Of a stretch of DNA of 64,000 bases, positions 12,890 to 54,908 are shown piece after piece (the first letter of the stretch is position 1; every line of letters starts with the position of its first letter). This stretch comes from Ruminococcaceae bacterium R-25 (lineage in GTDB: Bacteria > Bacillota > Clostridia > Saccharofermentanales > Saccharofermentanaceae): positions 310,001 to 374,000 of the forward strand of contig QGFZ01000001.1 of assembly GCA_003149065.1 (NCBI GenBank). The letters are read 5' to 3'. The translations under genes and the position numbers were made by a program. The notes below the pieces were generated by a model. That model worked only from the letters and a program-made list of their open reading frames with translations. It made no database searches and was not told where the DNA came from.

Positions 12890-13420
12890 ATGGATACAGA
12901 AAAGAAAGACGTTAAGGTTGCTGCACCTGTAGCTGCTCCTGCTGCTGCACCTGCACCTGTTAAGGCAGAGAAGAAGGCTGCTGCTAAGAAGCCCGCTGCA
13001 AAGGAGGCTGCTGCTGCGCATGCTGCGGCAGAGAAGAAGGCTGCTGCTAAGAAGCCCGCTGCAAAGAAGGCTGCTAAGAAGCCTGCTGCAAAGAAGGCTG
13101 CTCCTAAGGCTGACGCTAAGAAGGCAGAGGCTAAGAAGCCCGCTGCAAAGAAGGCTGCTGCTAAGAAGCCCGTTGCAAAGAAGGCTGCTGCTAAGAAGGC
13201 TGCTCCTGCAAAGAAGGCTGCTGCTAAGAAGCCCGCTGCAAAGAAGGCTGCTAAGAAGGTTGCTGCTCCTAAGAAGGTTGACATCATCTTCCAGATCGAT
13301 GGTCAGGAAATCTCTGCAGCTGCTATCGCAAAGAAGCTTCCTAAGGCTGCTAAGATCTATGTCGTTGCAGCTGAGAAGAAGGCTTACGATGTTGATGGTA
13401 AGGGTGTAGATCTCTTCTAA
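12890..13420 (+). CDS. Lys/Ala-rich histone H1-like protein with DUF6465-like C-terminus
   Basis: The 176-residue protein has a basic low-complexity region (about residues 5-129) made of AAKKPAAKKA-type blocks, resembling the tails of histone H1, AlgP and the phasin PhaF. The non-repetitive last 47 residues (from VDIIFQIDGQEISAAAIAKK) resemble the small DUF6465 domain of clostridial proteins. The likely role is binding DNA or another polyanion through the lysines. Codon use is monotonous (AAG AAG GCT GCT), giving long open frames in other frames that are shadows. It has a strong promoter, a duplicated leader motif and a terminator of its own, so it is probably well expressed. Similar tails occur on Ppk, GlgB and GlgA in this window. 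Confidence 0.8.
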   Translation: MDTEKKDVKVAAPVAAPAAAPAPVKAEKKAAAKKPAAKEAAAAHAAAEKKAAAKKPAAKKAAKKPAAKKAAPKADAKKAEAKKPAAKKAAAKKPVAKKAAAKKAAPAKKAAAKKPAAKKAAKKVAAPKKVDIIFQIDGQEISAAAIAKKLPKAAKIYVVAAEKKAYDVDGKGVDLF

Positions 13421-20034: not shown

Positions 20035-22442
20035 TGGCAGTCAAGAAAAACGCCGCCGGGCGCAAGGCAAATACAACAGAAAATAAGAAACAGGGGACTG
20101 TAAAGAAAACCGCGAAAAAGCCTGCTGAAAAGAAGGCTGTGGTTAAAAAGTCTGCTGCAAAAAAGACAGTGGATAAAAAGCCTGCCGTAAAAAAGGCTGC
20201 TTCATTTGTTGCTTCACCTGATATCTCAAAAGCTGATTACAATGAATCCAGCGCGTCTTTCTTAAGCGGAAACGCTTGCTTTTATAACCGTGAGCTTTCC
20301 TGGCTCGAGTTTGATGACCGTATTCTTCACGAAGCAAGAGATTCGAAAAATCCTTTGCTCGAGAGACTTAATTTCTTATCCATCACTGCATCAAACCTCG
20401 ATGAATTCTACATCGTAAGAGTTGCTTCCTTAAGGGATATGCAGAGTATCGATTTTGCCGAGCGCGACATCGCAGGTTTTTCTATTGATGAGCAGCTCGA
20501 GAGGATAGACCAGAAGACCAGAAGGACTATGTCACTGATGTATTCGACATACAACAGATCACTTGTTCCTTCACTTGCACAGGAACAGATCTTCTTAAGA
20601 AACTATGACGAGCTGTCAGATCAGCTCAAAGCAATAGCGGATTCATATTTCAAGGCAGTTCTCTATCCCATCATCACACCGATGGCGGTAGACTCATCAA
20701 GACCTTTCCCGCTTATCTATAACCGCATGCTCAACATGTGCGTAATGCTCGAAAATGAGCCCAAGAAGATCAAGCTCCAGGAAAGAGCGACCGACGGCAT
20801 CAGCAATGCAAAGCGTACAGTTAATGAAGAAAAATATATGTACGCAACGGTCCAGATCCCTACGGTCGTTAAGAGACTTTATCAGATCCCGACTGAGGAA
20901 GGCGACGTTTTCGTTCCTGTCGAGCAGATCATCAGAGCCAATGTTGACATGCTCTTTAACGGACAGACTGTAGTAGCTACGGCATTCTACCGCGTTATGC
21001 GTAATGCCGACCTCGATATCGACGAAGATGAAGCAGAAGACCTCTTAAAAGAGATCGAAGCGCAGGTAAGAAGACGCAGATTCGGTGAGATCATAAGGCT
21101 TGAAGTCCAGGATGATATCGAATCAGATCTTCTGCATTACATCGTAAACGAGCTCGAAGTAGATGAGGCCGATATTTTCAGCGTTAACGGTCCTATCGAC
21201 TTAACGTTCCTCTCAAAGCTTACTTCCGCATGCAAGGCAAAGCATCCCGAATTATGCTACAAGGCACATGAACCTGCCGAAGCAGCTTCATTTGACGGCC
21301 CTGTCTCAGGACTCGATATTTTCGAGCAGATAAGGGAAAAGGACAGGATCGTCCATCACCCTTATGAGACTTTTGAACCTGTATTGGAGTTCGTAAAGCA
21401 GGCAGCAAGAGATCCTAATGTATTAGCTATCAAGCAGACCCTCTACCGCGTATCCGACAGGTCTCCGATCATCGCATCGCTCCTCGAAGCAGCCCAGAAC
21501 GGTAAGCAGGTAATGGTACTTGTTGAGCTCAAGGCCAGATTTGATGAAGAGAACAACATCAACTGGGCTAAGAAACTTGAGAACGCAGGATGCCATGTAA
21601 TCTACGGACTTGTAGGCCTTAAGACGCACAGTAAGATAACCCTGGTCGTCAGAAAGGAAGAAGACGGAATCAGAAGATATCTGCACCTTGCGACAGGCAA
21701 CTATAACGATGTAACTGCAAAGATCTATACGGACTTAGGCCTGTTCACGGCTAACGAGTCATTCGGTGAGGATGCTTCCGAGTTCTTTAACATGCTCTCA
21801 GGATTCTCTATTCCGCAGTCCTGGAGAAGACTCATTCCGGCTCCTTTGTGGATGAAAGATTATTTCATCTCCAGGATCAGAAGAGAAGCCGAAAATGCCA
21901 GGGCAGGAAAGCCGGCGCGCATAATCGCGAAGATCAATTCTTTGGTTGATGAGACAGTTATTAAAGCTCTGTACACGGCTTCTAATGCCGGCGTTAAGAT
22001 CGACCTCATCGTCAGAGGCATCTGCTGCTTAAGAGCAGGAATCCCCGGTATGAGCGAGAATATCACTGTCCGTTCGATCACAGGCAGATTCCTTGAGCAT
22101 TCCAGAATTTTCTATTTCTACAATGAAGGTTACGAAGACATTTATCTTGCATCCGCAGACTGGATGCCGAGAAACCTTAACCGCCGTGTAGAACTTCTTT
22201 TCCCGATCGAAGATCCTGACTGCAGAGCCAGAGTCAAGGAAGTCCTTGATGTTGAACTTGCTGACACCGTAAGGGCTCATTTCTTATCGCCTGACGGTTC
22301 TTACCACAAGCTCGATCTGAGAGGCAAAGAGAAGCTTGATTCACAGCAGAAACTCATTGATCTTGCTGATGCAGCGGTCGCCGAGCGCCATAAGAGCATT
22401 GATAAACACGAGTTTATTCCGGAGGAAAGTCCCAGAGAGTAG
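20034..22442 (+). CDS. ppk1: Polyphosphate kinase 1 with Lys/Ala-rich N-terminal extension
   Basis: The 802-residue enzyme reversibly polymerises ATP's gamma-phosphate into polyphosphate. The core begins near residue 80 (CFYNRELSWLEFDDRIL) and contains both PLD-like active-site stretches: KQTLYRVS, the histidine segment LVGLKTHSKITLVVR (the autophosphorylated His), and YLHLATGNYND. Residues 1 to about 58 are an added basic tail rich in KK and AAKK, absent from the E. coli enzyme, and similar to the histone-like protein at 12890 and the tails of GlgB and GlgA. The ATG overlaps the TGA of the upstream Ppx-like gene. The tail could bind the polyanionic product or nucleic acid (inference). Confidence 0.95.
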   Translation: MAVKKNAAGRKANTTENKKQGTVKKTAKKPAEKKAVVKKSAAKKTVDKKPAVKKAASFVASPDISKADYNESSASFLSGNACFYNRELSWLEFDDRILHEARDSKNPLLERLNFLSITASNLDEFYIVRVASLRDMQSIDFAERDIAGFSIDEQLERIDQKTRRTMSLMYSTYNRSLVPSLAQEQIFLRNYDELSDQLKAIADSYFKAVLYPIITPMAVDSSRPFPLIYNRMLNMCVMLENEPKKIKLQERATDGISNAKRTVNEEKYMYATVQIPTVVKRLYQIPTEEGDVFVPVEQIIRANVDMLFNGQTVVATAFYRVMRNADLDIDEDEAEDLLKEIEAQVRRRRFGEIIRLEVQDDIESDLLHYIVNELEVDEADIFSVNGPIDLTFLSKLTSACKAKHPELCYKAHEPAEAASFDGPVSGLDIFEQIREKDRIVHHPYETFEPVLEFVKQAARDPNVLAIKQTLYRVSDRSPIIASLLEAAQNGKQVMVLVELKARFDEENNINWAKKLENAGCHVIYGLVGLKTHSKITLVVRKEEDGIRRYLHLATGNYNDVTAKIYTDLGLFTANESFGEDASEFFNMLSGFSIPQSWRRLIPAPLWMKDYFISRIRREAENARAGKPARIIAKINSLVDETVIKALYTASNAGVKIDLIVRGICCLRAGIPGMSENITVRSITGRFLEHSRIFYFYNEGYEDIYLASADWMPRNLNRRVELLFPIEDPDCRARVKEVLDVELADTVRAHFLSPDGSYHKLDLRGKEKLDSQQKLIDLADAAVAERHKSIDKHEFIPEESPRE

Positions 22443-37959: not shown

Positions 37960-39336
37960 ATGGGATTGATTAGCTTAATCAAGAATGTTGCAGGAACAAC
38001 ATTTGATTCTATCAGCAGCCAGATCCAGGATCAGTATCTTGAGTTCTTCACACAGGACTCTTTAGGACAGGAGATCCTTGTAAAGAAGGGTGCTAACAAG
38101 ATGGAAAAGGGAAGAAATAAGGGTAATTCCGAAGTTATCTCCAATGGCTCCATCATCAACGTACCTGAGGGCTGCTTCTGTCTCCTCGTTAACAACGGAG
38201 AGATCGTAGACGTAGTATCTGACGCAGGCGCTTACAAGTGGGATACATCCACAGCACCTTCAGTTCTTGCTAACAAGAACTTCGGTGAGAACGTAAAGCA
38301 GTCCATCGGTGACATCTGGAACCGTATGAAGATGGGCGGAGAGATTCAGCAGCAGCAGAGAGTTTACTTCGTAAACAAGCTCGAGATGATGAATCAGAAC
38401 TTCGGTACACCTTCACCGGTACCTTATGCAGACCCTGAATATCGTAACATCTATATCCGTTTGAACGGTACATTCTCCTTCAGAGTTGAGAATCCTGTTA
38501 CTTTCTTCAGAAACATCGTTGGTAACGTAAGAGACGAGTACACAGTTGCTGACTTCATGGGTACACCCGCTAAGCCTCAGCAGCCCCGCCTCGAGTTCCT
38601 TGACAACATCACAGAAACACTTAATAAGTGCGGCGGCCCTTACCCGCAGGGTATCATGTTCTCAACACTGCCTTCAAAGCAGGGCGAGTTCAGAAGATAC
38701 ATGCAGGATTGCCTTGATGACGAGTGGCTCCAGAAGAGAGGTATCGTTGTAGAGAAGGTTGCTATCGCTTCCGTTACACCTGACGACAAGTCACGTGAGA
38801 GAATCGAGAAGGTCGACGAGGCAAAGCTCTATGGTTCCGATCAGGCAGCTCTCGGTGCAGCAGTTGCATTGGGCCAGACAGAGGCTATGAAGAATGCTGG
38901 TGCTAACGCTAACGGCGCAGTTAACGGCTTCATGGGTCTCGGTATGATGGGCGCAGTAGGCGGCAACAACGCTACAGCAGCAGCTCTCAATACAGTTCAG
39001 GCTAACCAGGGTCAGCCTCAGACAGGTTTCTTCGCTGGTCAGACAGCAGCACCTGCAGCAGCTCCCGCAGCAGCTGGTTGGACATGTGCTTGCGGCCAGA
39101 CAGGCAACACAGGTAAGTTCTGTGGCAACTGCGGTCAGCCTCAGCCCGCTCCCGTAGCACCTGCAGCTGGTTGGACATGCGCTTGCGGCGCTACAGGCAA
39201 TACAGGTAAGTTCTGCGGCAACTGTGGTCAGCCTCAGCCTGCAGCAGCTCCTACAGCTTGCCCTAAGTGCGGCTACAAGCCCGCTGACGGCGTTATGCCT
39301 AAGTTCTGCCCTGAGTGCGGCACAAAGATCGAATAA
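37960..39336 (+). CDS. SPFH-domain protein with C-terminal zinc ribbons (YdjI-like)
   Basis: The 458-residue protein has an SPFH/band-7-like domain over about 40-310 (virion-core-protein/YdjI type) and an Ala/Gly-rich linker (about 310-375). Three zinc ribbons follow: two near-identical copies of WTCACG...GKFCGNCGQPQP and a final CPKCGY...KFCPECGTKIE. The frame reaches back to 37882, but AGGAGG at 37944-37949 fixes ATG 37960. Related proteins act as membrane-associated scaffolds, sometimes in phage-shock or stress responses. No transmembrane helix is visible, so membrane contact would be peripheral. It is monocistronic with a strong terminator. Confidence 0.85.
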   Translation: MGLISLIKNVAGTTFDSISSQIQDQYLEFFTQDSLGQEILVKKGANKMEKGRNKGNSEVISNGSIINVPEGCFCLLVNNGEIVDVVSDAGAYKWDTSTAPSVLANKNFGENVKQSIGDIWNRMKMGGEIQQQQRVYFVNKLEMMNQNFGTPSPVPYADPEYRNIYIRLNGTFSFRVENPVTFFRNIVGNVRDEYTVADFMGTPAKPQQPRLEFLDNITETLNKCGGPYPQGIMFSTLPSKQGEFRRYMQDCLDDEWLQKRGIVVEKVAIASVTPDDKSRERIEKVDEAKLYGSDQAALGAAVALGQTEAMKNAGANANGAVNGFMGLGMMGAVGGNNATAAALNTVQANQGQPQTGFFAGQTAAPAAAPAAAGWTCACGQTGNTGKFCGNCGQPQPAPVAPAAGWTCACGATGNTGKFCGNCGQPQPAAAPTACPKCGYKPADGVMPKFCPECGTKIE

Positions 39337-44594: not shown

Positions 44595-45545
44595 ATGAAA
44601 AAAGCTCTTAAGACTATTGGGATAGTAATTCTCGCTCTGCTGGCAGTACTGGTCATTGCTGTGGTTGGTATTTTTATCTGGCACAGGATAATGCTCGAAA
44701 AGGAAAAGCCGTTGCTCGAACACCCTCTGGGACAGCTGATCGAAGTTGACGGCCACAATATGTGTGTTTATACGGAAGGTGAAGGGGAGCATACATTGCT
44801 GTTCCTTTCAGGATCCGGAACGCCCGCGCCCATTATTGATTTCAAGCCTTTATACTCGCTTTTGAATGATGATTACAGGATCGTCGTAATCGAAAAATAC
44901 GGCTATGGTTTCAGTGATGTGGTTGATACCGAGAGGTCATTTACCACGATCTTAAGACAGGACAGGGAAGTTCTCGAAAAGGCCGGCATTGAAGGCCCGT
45001 TCATCCTTTGCCCGCACTCTTTGTCCGGACTTGAAGCTATCCTGTGGGCTCAGGATTATCCTGATGAGGTTGAAGCCATTGTCGGTCTTGATAATGTACT
45101 CCCCAGAACATATGACAATTACGATGTTGAAGGAACCTTGAAACTCGAGGGCCTTTTTACCGCAGCAAGGGAACTGGGCCTTGCAAGGCTCTACTATTCT
45201 GACAGCTTTCTTCCGGACAGCCTTTCCAAGGAAGAGAAGGATCTCTACCGTGCCATTGCGTCAAGGAACCTGGTAAATGTGGATGTTATGAATGAGGGCA
45301 AGGCGATTTTCGATGCAGTCAGATTAATAGACAGCAAGCCCAAGCCTGATGTTCCGATTATAATGTTTATTTCCGACGGTAAAGAAACCAACGGCAGCGA
45401 CTGGATAGGCAATCACTATGCTTATGCTGCTGACCTGTCAAATGCAAAGGTCGTAGAACTCGGCTGCGGTCACTATGTGCATTATTTCAAGGCTGATGAG
45501 ATCGCTTCTGAGACGAGAGCTTTCCTCAAGGAGCAATTAGGTTAA
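44595..45545 (+). CDS. Membrane-anchored alpha/beta hydrolase
   Basis: The 316-residue protein has one N-terminal membrane helix (about 8-32) and an alpha/beta-hydrolase domain. The oxyanion segment LFLSGSGTPAP, the nucleophile elbow CPHSLSGLEA (Ser) and the C-terminal catalytic His in LGCGHYVHYF are visible. It probably cleaves an ester or amide outside or at the membrane; no substrate-specific feature was recognised. It starts 20 bp after the terminator of the vor-type operon and is followed by palindrome array B. Confidence 0.83.
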   Translation: MKKALKTIGIVILALLAVLVIAVVGIFIWHRIMLEKEKPLLEHPLGQLIEVDGHNMCVYTEGEGEHTLLFLSGSGTPAPIIDFKPLYSLLNDDYRIVVIEKYGYGFSDVVDTERSFTTILRQDREVLEKAGIEGPFILCPHSLSGLEAILWAQDYPDEVEAIVGLDNVLPRTYDNYDVEGTLKLEGLFTAARELGLARLYYSDSFLPDSLSKEEKDLYRAIASRNLVNVDVMNEGKAIFDAVRLIDSKPKPDVPIIMFISDGKETNGSDWIGNHYAYAADLSNAKVVELGCGHYVHYFKADEIASETRAFLKEQLG

Positions 45546-45600
45546 CCAATATACATAATAAAGATGGCCTTATAATGAAATGAACCGCCTATTTGAGAAG

Positions 45601-45794
45601 TGTATCGAAAACCCCTGGTTTTATTGTGTTTTCGATACAACAACGTTTTATGCTGTATCGAAAAAGGGTATTTTATGAGGTTTTCGATACAAAAACTCTA
45701 ATTTGTATCGAAACGGGGTGTTTTTGAAGGTTTTCGATACAGAAAAGTGCGACCTTGTATCGAAACCGCTTGGCTTTTATGTGTTTTCGATACA
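45601..45794. repeat. Palindrome array B: eight alternating 12-bp sites, four hairpin units
   Basis: The 337-bp gap between converging genes holds four inverted-repeat units at 45601-45639, 45654-45691, 45704-45741 and 45756-45794. Every left arm starts TGTATCGAAA and all four right arms are identical, GTTTTCGATACA. Arm starts at 45601, 45628, 45654, 45680, 45704, 45730, 45756 and 45783 give steps of 27, 26, 26, 24, 26, 26 and 27 bp. Loops of 14-15 nt differ but each keeps a TTTT core, mostly TTTTAT. Spacers are 12-14 nt and unrelated. The geometry equals array A, yet the arms share only GAAA with it. No open frame or terminator explains it. Confidence 0.92.
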
Positions 45795-45882
45795 AAAAGG
45801 TAATTTACCTGAATTTGCTCAAATTCTTACCAAAAACCGCAAAATAAGTGTGAAATAGGTATTCAGCCAGATCTGCAGTCTT

Positions 45883-46416
45883 TTACGCGAAAGGTATGAG
45901 CGTTGCAACGCCGTTTTCGATGATGATATAAGACGGTTTTGTATCTTCCTTCGGAATTGAAGGAGAGCCCGGATTCATATATCGGATCTTACGGCCGTCT
46001 TCGTATTCCCAGATGATATCTCCTGCAACATGCGTATGTCCTGTAAGAAGGATCGCATCTTCAGGCATAACGGCAGGAAGGTTCATAGGGTTATAGATAT
46101 GGCCGTGAGTTACGAAGAAAACTGTTCCTTCGTCAACTAAGTAGACGTAATCTGCCAGGATAGGGAACTTTAAGACCATCTGGTCTACTTCGGTATCGCA
46201 GTTTCCTCTTACGGCAATGATCTTATCCGCATAGCCGTTAAGTAAACTGATTACCTTCTTTGGTTCGTAATGAGCGGGAAGATCGTTCCTGGGACCGTGA
46301 TAGAGAATGTCGCCCAGCAAAACGAGCTTGTCGGCTTTGCTCTCTATAAAAGCGTCAATGATGCGCTGTGCCCAGTATGAATCTCCGTGTATATCAGATG
46401 CTATAAAAAACTTCAT
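45883..46416 (-). CDS. yfcE: YfcE/MJ0936-family metallophosphodiesterase
   Basis: The 177-residue calcineurin-like enzyme has the full metal-ligand set: ASDIHGD, LLGDILYHGP, VRGNCDTE, THGHIY and TGHTHVAG. Family members hydrolyse phosphodiester bonds in vitro; the natural substrate is unknown, possibly cyclic dinucleotide or another small diester. The gene is convergent with array B at its 3' end and divergent from the LacI-GGDEF gene. Upstream, AGAAGAGGTC precedes the ATG on the minus strand. Confidence 0.9.
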   Translation of the reverse strand: MKFFIASDIHGDSYWAQRIIDAFIESKADKLVLLGDILYHGPRNDLPAHYEPKKVISLLNGYADKIIAVRGNCDTEVDQMVLKFPILADYVYLVDEGTVFFVTHGHIYNPMNLPAVMPEDAILLTGHTHVAGDIIWEYEDGRKIRYMNPGSPSIPKEDTKPSYIIIENGVATLIPFA

Positions 46417-46532
46417 AAGATGACCTCTTCTAAACTAACTCTGAATAGAATAACACGATAAAGCAGATGCAGGCAGCGAAAAAATCTAAAACATAATTTA
46501 CAATGCGTTAACCATTCCGCCGTTTCAAAGAA

Positions 46533-48703: not shown

Positions 48704-50797
48704 ATGGATGCCGCTTATTTATTTAACAACGGCGAGAATTTTATGAGCTATAAATTCCTCGGCGCTCATCCTTATGAGGACGAGAACGGGAAGGGCTTTA
48801 TATTCCGCGTATGGGCTCCTCATGCAAGAATGGTCAGTGTTATGGGTGATTTCAATGATTGGGATCCCAATGACTGCCAGATGTTTATGCTTGGAAAGAC
48901 CGGAATCTGGGAACAGAAAGTACCTGATGCCCAGCAATGGGACAGATATAAATACAGAGTTATCGGTGCGGATAACAGGATCTATGAGAAGGGTGATCCC
49001 TTCGCTAGACATTTCGAGACCAGACCTAATAATGCGTCTATCATCTACGATCCTGACGATTATATCTGGAACGATGACGAATTCTGCAAGAACCGCACGG
49101 ATGCTTTGGCACCTAAGCCGATCAACATTTATGAGATCCATTTGGGTTCATGGAGAAGACATCCTGACGGAAACTTCTTTACTTACAGAGAACTCGCTAT
49201 AGACCTTGCTGATTACTGCAAGAAGATGCACTACACACATGTAGAGCTCATGCCTATTTTAGAGCATCCTTTGGATGACTCCTGGGGTTATCAGGTTACA
49301 GGTTATTACGCAGTTACTTCCAGATTCGGAACTCCTGCAGATTTCAAGTTCATGGTAGATGTACTACACCAGAACGGAATCTCCATTATCCTCGACTGGG
49401 TACCTGCACACTTCCCGAAGAATATGGAAGGCCTTGTCAGATTTGACGGCACACCCTGCTATGAATATGCGGATCCCAGGATCGGCGAGCACAGGGAGTG
49501 GGGCACCTATGTTTTCGATTATTCAAAGAACGAAGTTATATCGTTCCTTATCTCCAATGCCGTATACTGGCTTGATGAATTCCATCTTGATGGTATCCGC
49601 GTAGACGCAGTATCTTCAATGCTCTACAGAGATTACGGAAGACAACAGTATATCCCGAACAGGTTCGGTGGCAACGAGAATCTTGAGGCAATCGATTTCT
49701 TTAAAAAGCTCAATTCCACGATCAGAAAGAATTATCCTCATGCAATGATCATTGCTGAAGAATCCACTGCTTGGCCCAAGGTATCCCATCCCGTTGAGTT
49801 CGGCGGTCTGGGCTTTACGCACAAGTGGAACATGGGCTGGATGCACGATACTCTGGATTATTTCTCAACTGATTCTTATGCGAGAGCATGGCATCACGAT
49901 GAATTCTGCTTCTCGATGATGTATGCATTCTCCGAAAATTACATCCTGAGCCTGTCTCACGATGAAGTAGTTCACGGCAAGCATTCTTTGATAGACAAGA
50001 TGCCGGGCGATATCTGGAGAAAGTTCGCATCTCTCAGAACCATGATGATGTATCAGATCAGCCATCCGGGCGGAAAGCTCAACTTCATGGGTGCTGAATT
50101 CGGTCAGTTTATCGAGTGGCGTTTCTATGAGCAGCTCGAGTGGTTCCTGTTGGATTATGAATCACACCGCCTGCTCCAGAACTTCAACAGCGAGCTCAAT
50201 AAGTTCTACATCGAAAATCCCCAGCTGTGGGAAGATGACCACACATGGGCAGGCTTTGAATGGATCGCTGCAGACGATACAAAGAATAACGTTTTCGTAT
50301 ACAAGAGATCTTGTCCGGATCCCAAGAGAAACGATATTTATGTAGCTCTCAACATGGTCCCCCAGCCGCTCGAAGGCTATGAGATGCCTGTTTACGAGCT
50401 CGGCACATATAAGATCGTATTCAACACTGATGATATGTGCCATGGCGGCTCAGGCTATCCTACGGCTACCGATATGAACGGCTGCTTTGAAGCGATCGAC
50501 GAGCCTTTGAACGGCAAGCCTTATAAGGTTAAGATCAACCTTCCTCCTTTGGCAGGTATCTACTTTATGAAGGTAAAAGATCCTGTAAAGAAGAGGGCAA
50601 AGAAGACCGTTAAGGCTGCTGATACAAAGAAGACTGTGGCAAAGAAGACTGCTGCAAAACCGGCTGCAAAAAAGACTGCAAAAGCAGCTCCAAAGAAGGC
50701 TGTAAAGGCAGCAGAAACAAAGCCTGCAAAGAAGACCGCGGCTAAAAAGCCTGCAGCTTCCAAGAAGGCTGAAACTAAAACGAAGAAAACAAAATAA
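48704..50797 (+). CDS. glgB: 1,4-alpha-glucan branching enzyme with Lys/Ala-rich tail
   Basis: The 697-residue enzyme makes alpha-1,6 branches in glycogen. An N-terminal CBM48 (about 20-110, FRVWAPHARMVSVMGDFNDW) precedes the GH13 catalytic domain with the nucleophile region GIRVDAVSSMLY, acid/base IIAEEST and the third acidic site LSHDEVVHGK. The starting residues MDAAYLFNNGENF match clostridial GlgB, supporting ATG 48704 although its GGGAGG is 13 nt away. After residue about 624 the protein continues as a 74-residue basic tail of AKK/PAAKK blocks, not part of the usual enzyme. It heads the operon glgB-glgC-glgD-glgA-GH13, 24 bp before glgC. Confidence 0.95.
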   Translation: MDAAYLFNNGENFMSYKFLGAHPYEDENGKGFIFRVWAPHARMVSVMGDFNDWDPNDCQMFMLGKTGIWEQKVPDAQQWDRYKYRVIGADNRIYEKGDPFARHFETRPNNASIIYDPDDYIWNDDEFCKNRTDALAPKPINIYEIHLGSWRRHPDGNFFTYRELAIDLADYCKKMHYTHVELMPILEHPLDDSWGYQVTGYYAVTSRFGTPADFKFMVDVLHQNGISIILDWVPAHFPKNMEGLVRFDGTPCYEYADPRIGEHREWGTYVFDYSKNEVISFLISNAVYWLDEFHLDGIRVDAVSSMLYRDYGRQQYIPNRFGGNENLEAIDFFKKLNSTIRKNYPHAMIIAEESTAWPKVSHPVEFGGLGFTHKWNMGWMHDTLDYFSTDSYARAWHHDEFCFSMMYAFSENYILSLSHDEVVHGKHSLIDKMPGDIWRKFASLRTMMMYQISHPGGKLNFMGAEFGQFIEWRFYEQLEWFLLDYESHRLLQNFNSELNKFYIENPQLWEDDHTWAGFEWIAADDTKNNVFVYKRSCPDPKRNDIYVALNMVPQPLEGYEMPVYELGTYKIVFNTDDMCHGGSGYPTATDMNGCFEAIDEPLNGKPYKVKINLPPLAGIYFMKVKDPVKKRAKKTVKAADTKKTVAKKTAAKPAAKKTAKAAPKKAVKAAETKPAKKTAAKKPAASKKAETKTKKTK

Positions 50798-53213: not shown

Positions 53214-54908
53214 ATGGAAAAAAACATCAAAGTATTGTTCTGTTCGTCTGAGTGCAGTCCGTTCGTTAAAGTCGGCGGCCTGGCAGACGTTGTAGGCAGC
53301 CTGCCTGTAGAGCTTAATAAGCAGGGCGTTGATGCACGTGTTATTATCCCGCTCTACAAGAAGATCAAGGTTAAGTACAGCGACAAACTCCAGTTCCTCG
53401 GCTGGAAGATGGTCCATATGGGATGGAGATCGCTTTATGCAGGCCTTTTCTCTCTGGAAGTAAACGGCGTAATCTTCTATTTCATTGATAACGAATACTA
53501 TTTCAACTTTGACCAGATCTATGTTGATTATGTTTTCGATATCGAGCGTTACTGCTTCTATCAGAGAGCTGTCCTTGATTTCATGGGCGACTTCATGAAC
53601 TTTGAACCTAATGTTCTTCACTGCAATGACTGGCAGACGGGAATGATGCCGATGCTTTTGGACTGCCACTTCAAGAAGAACGGATATCACACCAACGTGC
53701 AGACGGTCTACACGATCCACAATCTCAAGTATCAGGGCGTTCATTCTATCGACGTTGTAAGAGAGATGTTGGATCTCCCTGACGATTACTTAAGAGAAGA
53801 TTTCTGCATCAAGGATAAGGCCATCAACTTCATGAAGGCCGGTATCGTATTCAGTAATTCTGTTACTACGGTATCTCCGACATATGCATATGAGATCATG
53901 ACAGATTACTATGGTGAAGGCCTCAACTATACATTGCAGAAGTATGCATACAAGGTATCCGGCATCATCAACGGCATGAATGATCTCGAATACGATCCTT
54001 CAAAGGACGACAAGATCCCGATGAAGTATTCGATCAAGAACTACAAGGAAGGCAAGGCTGCCTGCAAGAAGTCTTTGCAGGAGCAGCTTAAGCTTGATGT
54101 TAATCCCGGTGCTCCTTTGTGCGCAATGATCTCACGTCTCGTAGACCAGAAGGGATTAGACCTCCTGCTCTATGTTCTTGAGGAAATGCTCTACGACGGA
54201 ATGCAGGTAGTAATCCTCGGTACGGGCGATCCTTACTATGAGAGAGCTCTCGTTGATATCGCTAACCGCAACCCGGGCAAGATGTGCGCATGCATCGATT
54301 TCGACAGCGGTCTTGCACATACGATCTATGCTGCATCCGATATCTTCCTCATGCCCAGTATCTTTGAACCCTGCGGCCTCTCACAGCTCTGCTCCATGGC
54401 ATATGGTTCAGTTCCTGTCGTAAGAGAGACGGGCGGCCTTAAGGATACGGTCACACCTTATAATGAGTACACAGGCGAAGGCAACGGTTTCTCATTTGCC
54501 AACATCAATGCTCATGAGTTCTTATTCGTTACCAAGTATGCAGCTGACATCTACCGTCATCACCCTGATGTATGGAACAAGCTTATCGAAGCCGGCATGA
54601 AGGGCGACTATTCCTGGAAGAAGAGCGCAGGTGAGTATGCAGGTCTTTATTCCCTGATCACAGGCATTCCGAGGATCGTGGAAGAACCTGCAAAGGAAGC
54701 GAAAAAGGAAGCTCCGGCAAAGGAAGAAAAGCCTGCAGAAAAGAAGGCTGCTGATAAGAAGCCTGCAGTAAAGAAGGAAGCGGCTGCAAAGAAAGAGCCT
54801 GCTAAAAAAACTGCGGCAAAAAAGGCTCCGGCAAAAAAGCCCGCGGCTAAGAAAGCTACGGTAAAAGCCGATGAAAAGAAGCCTGAAGCGAAGGAGAAGA
54901 AAGACTGA
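53214..54908 (+). CDS. glgA: Glycogen synthase with Lys/Ala-rich tail
   Basis: The 564-residue GT5 enzyme elongates glycogen from ADP-glucose. KVGGLADVVGSLP near residue 20 binds ADP-glucose, and the C-terminal Rossmann domain has PSIFEPCGLSQLCSMAYGSV and ETGGLKDTV. The catalytic part ends near residue 488. The last 75 residues (about 490-564) are an acidic-to-basic low-complexity tail rich in AKK, PAKK and EKK, similar in style to that of GlgB. Its TGA overlaps the ATG of the GH13 gene. The tail is unusual for glycogen synthases. Confidence 0.95.
   Translation: MEKNIKVLFCSSECSPFVKVGGLADVVGSLPVELNKQGVDARVIIPLYKKIKVKYSDKLQFLGWKMVHMGWRSLYAGLFSLEVNGVIFYFIDNEYYFNFDQIYVDYVFDIERYCFYQRAVLDFMGDFMNFEPNVLHCNDWQTGMMPMLLDCHFKKNGYHTNVQTVYTIHNLKYQGVHSIDVVREMLDLPDDYLREDFCIKDKAINFMKAGIVFSNSVTTVSPTYAYEIMTDYYGEGLNYTLQKYAYKVSGIINGMNDLEYDPSKDDKIPMKYSIKNYKEGKAACKKSLQEQLKLDVNPGAPLCAMISRLVDQKGLDLLLYVLEEMLYDGMQVVILGTGDPYYERALVDIANRNPGKMCACIDFDSGLAHTIYAASDIFLMPSIFEPCGLSQLCSMAYGSVPVVRETGGLKDTVTPYNEYTGEGNGFSFANINAHEFLFVTKYAADIYRHHPDVWNKLIEAGMKGDYSWKKSAGEYAGLYSLITGIPRIVEEPAKEAKKEAPAKEEKPAEKKAADKKPAVKKEAAAKKEPAKKTAAKKAPAKKPAAKKATVKADEKKPEAKEKKD

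Follow-up and report, generated by a model that had tools for sequence, protein, structure and literature searches.

Dispersed repeats in bacterial chromosomes are often attributed to Y1 transposases or transposon ends. Short words are also repeated genome-wide as uptake sequences and as KOPS- or SRS-type words, and mycobacteriophage stoperators are dispersed short binding words that occupy small intergenic gaps and vary in word between relatives. Two reports describe REP, BIME and REPIN repeats as extragenic and species-specific, with inverted units in alternating orientation and several families per genome (PMC3733652, PMC2817692). REPs mostly lie either downstream of unidirectional and convergent genes or between such genes, and the majority have a tag, GTAG or CGTC, on one side (PMC2817692, PMC3733652); paired stem changes are reported for Stenotrophomonas REPs (PMC2817692), and some REP dimers keep the length of their spacer, not its sequence (PMC3733652). 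Here, we characterize a hairpin array from Ruminococcaceae bacterium R-25 and compare it with these systems.

The array and its surroundings

The window analyzed is a stretch of 64,000 nucleotides (contig QGFZ01000001.1, positions 310,001 to 374,000, forward strand). Between two converging genes, the original prediction had described four near-perfect hairpins with variable loops, and recomputation from the sequence confirmed that they are real. All four right arms read GTTTTCGATACA with zero mismatches, and all four left arms begin with TGTATCGAAA and then differ past base 10. The parts are as follows:

44595..45545 (+): neighboring alpha/beta-hydrolase gene, context only
45601..45794 (+): entire array of eight half-sites, with starts 29, 24, 28, 22, 28, 24 and 29 bp apart
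45601..45639 (+): hairpin unit 1, half-site TGTATCGAAA at 45601-45610 and inverted half-site TTTCGATACA at 45630-45639
45654..45691 (+): hairpin unit 2, half-sites at 45654-45663 and 45682-45691
45704..45741 (+): hairpin unit 3, half-sites at 45704-45713 and 45732-45741
45756..45794 (+): hairpin unit 4, half-sites at 45756-45765 and 45785-45794
45883..46416 (-): neighboring calcineurin-like phosphoesterase gene, context only, converging with the alpha/beta-hydrolase gene

With up to two mismatches allowed, the 12-mer was matched 24 times in the window, compared with a shuffle mean of 6.43, and none of 100 shuffles reached at least 24 matches. The original prediction had counted membership of a named repeat family against itself; comparison with Rfam and with the properties that define REP, BIME and REPIN elements gave no assignment.

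Elsewhere in the window, a 176-aa protein (12890-13420, +) contains long lysine-, alanine- and proline-rich tracts (AAKKPAAKK) like histone-H1-type tails, and comparable coding-like repeats occur at 20115-20201, 50625-50730 and 54729-54866. A 93-bp tandem repeat of 1.8 copies (39070-39239) lies within an ORF and, judged by eye, would encode a cysteine- and glycine-rich motif.

A family of arrays across the genome

Searching the genome for the arm word, as originally suggested, placed the window array as one copy among at least 19 places in 3.07 Mb, 15 of them complete and four partial. The word TGTATCGAAA occurs 140 times (68 + 72), against twice (1 + 1) for a reversed control and 13.4 times expected from a trinucleotide model trained on 400 kb of R-25 sequence; the exact hairpin occurs 51 times, against zero for its control. 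Alignment of the array by blastn returned 24 matches representing 18 places, to which a pattern search added one partial place. Each complete copy consists of eight TGTATCGAAA half-sites in alternating orientation, and a further degraded hairpin adjoins one end of four complete arrays (L066, L074 twice, L078). Within the 19 places fall 120 of the 140 exact words. Single words acting as lone operators were considered and rejected, as only 20 lie outside these places, near the 13.4 expected. Eight of these 20 isolated words were inspected, and all eight lie inside open frames.

The places are spread over contigs C1-C3 of seven and, by rough ORF calls, are all intergenic or overlap just doubtful ORFs or ORF starts. 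Rough assignment by hand gave seven convergent, ten tandem and two divergent settings; at least one gene end faces the array at 17 of the 19 places, again by rough calls. Genes adjoining copies include homologues of prmA, argG, argJ, trigger factor and mscL, as well as a GNAT gene (L067), a PAS-domain ORF in a tandem setting (L066) and a 333-aa ORF that probably starts beside the L070 array, giving a divergent setting. Among the neighbors scanned, no gene family recurred, except for GGDEF-domain genes at two copies, and no candidate gene for a binding protein was found. One neighbor considered as a binder, a zinc-ribbon membrane protein encoded next to an array in two species (one array each; 24% identity between the proteins), was rejected as a common membrane protein. 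Because the neighbors vary between copies, a role bound to the two genes of the window is unlikely. The original proposal of a role independent of neighboring genes thus stands in substance, but the convergent setting on which it had relied is nothing special, applying to 7 of the 19 places.

Conservation of half-sites and spacing

In complete arrays, half-site starts are spaced 29-24-29-22-29-24-29 bp, and like half-sites lie 53/51/53 bp apart, about five helical turns each. The spacing holds exactly in 10 of the 15 complete arrays; of their 105 gaps, 98 show no deviation and seven deviate by one (two of them in the window copy). These arrays were selected on the presence of eight sites, with gaps searched to within 2 bp, and larger indels appear only among the four partial copies. 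Across the 105 pairs of complete arrays, mean identity is 97.8% for half-sites and 55.1% for spacers, as measured on paralogous copies that may exchange sequence, since one genome alone carries the family in number. In the 25 most diverged pairs, spacers are 30-40% identical, where composition predicts 27%, and half-sites are 93-99% identical; the extreme pair combines 30% for spacers with 99% for half-sites. These values bear out that arms are constrained where loops drift, as originally argued.

Information content is 1.64-2.00 bits at each of half-site positions 1-10 and declines to 1.04 at position 11 and 0.64 at position 12. The A/T-rich center reaches up to 0.94 bits, and all remaining positions carry at most 0.40. 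At the unit center, viewed from both arms, 110 of the 120 half-sites have A or T at position 19 and 119 have A or T at position 20. The dinucleotide AC at positions 11-12 is retained unequally, in 57 and 54 of 60 right arms compared with 40 and 27 of 60 left arms, indicating that the unit is polar.

The 60 hairpins carry 15 single core changes, which are not 15 separate events (four are one change common to related copies), and in none of the 15 is the change compensated in the partner arm; the folded hairpin is, therefore, probably not the functional unit. Pairing is not above shuffled sequence where the stem would extend at positions 11-13; in the loop, positions 14 and 16 pair above shuffled (0.001 and 0 of 2000, respectively) and positions 13, 15 and 17 below. 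Together, drifting spacers, kept half-sites and the lack of compensation argue that double-stranded half-sites at fixed spacing are maintained, not stems. The best reading of these sequence patterns is that each half-site would be recognized as double-stranded DNA.

Arrays of other words in the genus

A further array belongs to a second family of the same genome:

8083..8277 (no strand assigned): half-site about TTTCAGTCAAGA, period 51-52, with weak outermost sites (3-4 mismatches of 12)

Related arrays with the words TTTCAGTCAAGA and GTAACTGAAAT occur in L168 and L174. A first scan for arrays gave 54 groups, many with near-palindromic words, compared with 15 in base-shuffled sequence, and a stricter k-mer and geometry scan was adopted because of this high background. 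Applied to 1.92 Mb from R-25 and four other species of the genus (G016, G019, G046 and G077), it detected 40 arrays, some resting on one or two seed matches, and none in one Markov-resampled copy per set; the samples from R-25, G077, G046 and G019 include stretches picked for known matches. Controls gave no arrays in 88 kb from other phyla and two in 200 kb of Escherichia coli. One of the latter (98-bp period, spacers 93% identical) lies between fre and fadA, and we take it to be a BIME; the other has a GC-rich word.

The words differ between genomes. In G077, they include TGGGGTAAA, TGTATTC and GTGTAGTAA, and one TGGGGTAA array repeats the 53/51/53/51 alternation of the window family. The TGGGGTAAA array alternates between 53 and 51 bp; the word is represented by this one array, located where a contig ends, with spacers still 68% alike. 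A period of 52 characterizes TGTAAACAAT arrays in G016 and CTGTAATTT arrays in G019, which has other words too, while G046 contains TTCACG-based arrays and 72-bp arrays. Hairpins of TTCACGAAA were found in 8 of 83 genus genomes. The inner spacing quoted for an array depends on the chosen half-site start; the period does not. Additional observations concern ACGGCTA arrays of 64-bp period, a further family in R-25 (L185 11473-11677 and 17162-17301, L186 14116-14314), and an identical CGTCGAC array in two G077 contigs, each time at a contig end (L155 and L163, positions 5-116), which suggests that such repeats may have broken the assembly.

The 72-bp arrays of G046 (L224 10417-10803 and 17548-17777, L223 11-77, L214 11896-11989) have spacers that are 70-100% identical and are perhaps young stages of such arrays. 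Tandem duplication, which the original prediction had argued out, is thus still a possible origin: young arrays may resemble tandem duplications and old ones retain half-sites alone.

To relate periods to the DNA helix, in which one turn is 10.5 bp, steps of 7-15 bp were fitted to the periods of 22 automatically grouped word families. The best fit was obtained at 10.5 bp (R 0.62), a value equalled in 3 of 20000 uniform draws. Most periods are near 31, 52, 61-64, 72-74 or 104; two of the 40 arrays do not fit, having period 49, and unlike periods are mixed within three of the 22 families. Hand-typed periods of 21 families gave R 0.85 (0 of 100000), the automatic 22-family test being the trustworthy one. 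Within the limits of a rough grouping, the 10.5-bp step supports the view that the arrays may be read on the double helix.

Interpretation and alternative explanations

We consider it reasonably likely that the array belongs to a dispersed, non-autonomous repeat whose functional portion is a platform of eight sites for a putative sequence-specific protein. Its eight 10-12-bp half-sites, alternating in orientation, are set on the helix at near-constant spacing. Direct observations in favor are the dispersal of the copies, the flanks that some of them have in common, the constraint on half-sites and spacing against drifting spacers, the absence of signs of selected pairing in the core, the arrays of other words in congeners and the differing occupancy of the window locus in relatives. 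Counting against this reading are the lack of a candidate binder among the neighbors scanned, the absence of terminal repeats as judged by eye, the dependence on paralogous copies, the raised pairing at loop positions 14 and 16 and the misfits among the periods. A sequence-specific oligomeric protein would bind the array as double-stranded DNA, occupying all eight sites and probably bending the A/T-rich center of each unit, and one large nucleoprotein complex would be built per copy. This complex is most likely what the element needs for persistence or spread, and protein and word most likely change together between species; effects on the folding of the chromosome or on intergenic read-through are possible. 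More tentatively, the arrays of the genus could constitute an undescribed class of elements, helix-locked inverted half-site arrays in which the plan is kept and the word replaced between families and species; our search of the open literature turned up nothing of this kind. If this is true, rapidly diversifying DNA-binding proteins, each with a private word, would dock on non-coding arrays of one architecture. Finding the protein would provide a natural series of word-protein pairs for studying shifts in DNA-binding specificity and would perhaps reveal a new type of docking site on the chromosome.

It is unlikely, though still conceivable, that the array is instead a host chromosome-organizing or insulating site at which a nucleoid-associated, partition-like or transcription-roadblock protein benefits the cell. 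Such a site would account for half-sites and spacing being kept even though spacers approach chance identity and flanks differ, and it would suit copies that rough ORF calls place between genes, on three of seven contigs. A roadblock is conceivable at the window array because a stricter terminator scan found no terminator-like hairpin ahead of it for either of the converging genes. Against a host role, the exact hairpin is absent from 83 of the 84 other genus genomes searched, many of them incomplete (51 hairpins in R-25 and one in G019, thus 2 of 85 genomes). In addition, of 29 loci of relatives compared with that of the window, three have the two genes adjacent, and these three hold no array or a different one: the gap is 337 bp in R-25, about 12 bp in G040 and about 9 bp in G078, and in G077 an array of a different word lies within a gap of about 162 bp. 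A host function should hold place and word for longer. More broadly, none of 17 genomes from other genera of the family contains the exact hairpin, and an 84,980-species collection, from which records near the window may be absent, yielded 12 loci with one exact hairpin each. One of them (L091) is the same contig as the G019 hairpin; the other 11 belong to other phyla, showed no array in the scan and were taken as chance.

Much less probable is that the copies are MITEs derived from a DDE-type transposon, in which the half-sites serve as subterminal transposase sites. Some copies do share up to 416 bp with common flanks in otherwise unrelated surroundings: the L066, L074, L076 and L078 loci can be aligned along 278-416 bp (87.5-94.7% identity), with nothing longer at E 1e-8, and a right flank starting with GTTGA is common to eight places. 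However, no terminal inverted repeat or other terminal repeat was noticed at the ends of these flank-sharing copies when the alignment was read by eye; the transposase search covered Y1 only. Sequence is also shared between species, as R-25 and G019 have in common a 530-bp segment (93%; L056 1497-2028 and L050, reverse strand) that carries one TGTATCGAAA hairpin and a gene for a 105-aa membrane protein. Its homology begins no more than 4 bp from the hairpin, and the G019 copy has a half-site with one mismatch at the 24-bp spacing of the family. Plasmids and phages gave no blastn match at E 1e-5, and viral contigs contained no exact hairpin.

We give a slightly lower chance to transcribed RNA hairpins acting as terminators, 3' end stabilizers or small RNAs. 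The gene ends facing most arrays by rough calls would suit such a role, as would the strong predicted fold of the window array (z = -5.92), a score that says little because perfect inverted repeats give such a fold anyway. The two genes flanking the array are without another terminator-like hairpin ahead of it, and one weak terminator-like site, spanning units 3 and 4 on the minus strand, was reported in a 601-base region, where shuffles expect 0.5. Yet the stricter scan detected a terminator-like hairpin within none of the 17 arrays scanned from the 19 places, and Rfam gave nothing at gathering score in 45001-46500 of the window, with three sub-threshold matches only. The uncompensated core changes and a hairpin-to-hairpin spacing fixed to one base, needless for RNA, also argue against this role. 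Terminator-like hairpins precede the array at 10 of the 24 gene ends taken as facing one, a set in which the L070 end was wrongly assigned.

The least probable alternative is a REP-, BIME- or REPIN-type repeat mobilized by a Y1 (RAYT) transposase recognizing folded single strands: the extragenic, species-specific copies in alternating orientation and the several families per genome are REP-like, but the half-site itself is no palindrome, its core changes are unpaired, Y1_Tnp (PF01797) has no match in the genome (six candidates scored; positive in 5 of 14 control genomes) and the window array has neither GTAG nor CGTC; of 15 arrays, three contain GTAG/CTAC and none contains CGTC/GACG.

Comparison with known systems

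For the preferred reading, a platform of double-stranded binding sites on a non-autonomous repeat, each described system offers a partial likeness. Stoperators are single asymmetric sites in phage genomes, in contrast to the eight-site phased chromosomal arrays described here. Uptake sequences and KOPS- or SRS-type words differ in their distribution, as the exact words of R-25 are concentrated inside arrays and the remainder is close to expectation. MITEs resemble the family in being short, non-autonomous and dispersed, with closely related copies; here, by contrast, an interior array is conserved and terminal inverted repeats were not noticed by eye. REP, BIME and REPIN elements are closest in ecology and, as far as rough gene calls allow, share extragenic units and alternating orientation, yet the family differs from them in Y1 transposase, tag and paired changes: its half-site is non-palindromic, and the tag is absent from the window array. 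Spacing fixed to one base between drifting spacers is a difference of degree, some REP dimers being similar. Where dispersed bacterial repeats are often traced to Y1 transposases or transposon ends, the evidence here favors constraint on double-stranded words at helical spacing, in which the word changes between families and the plan stays.
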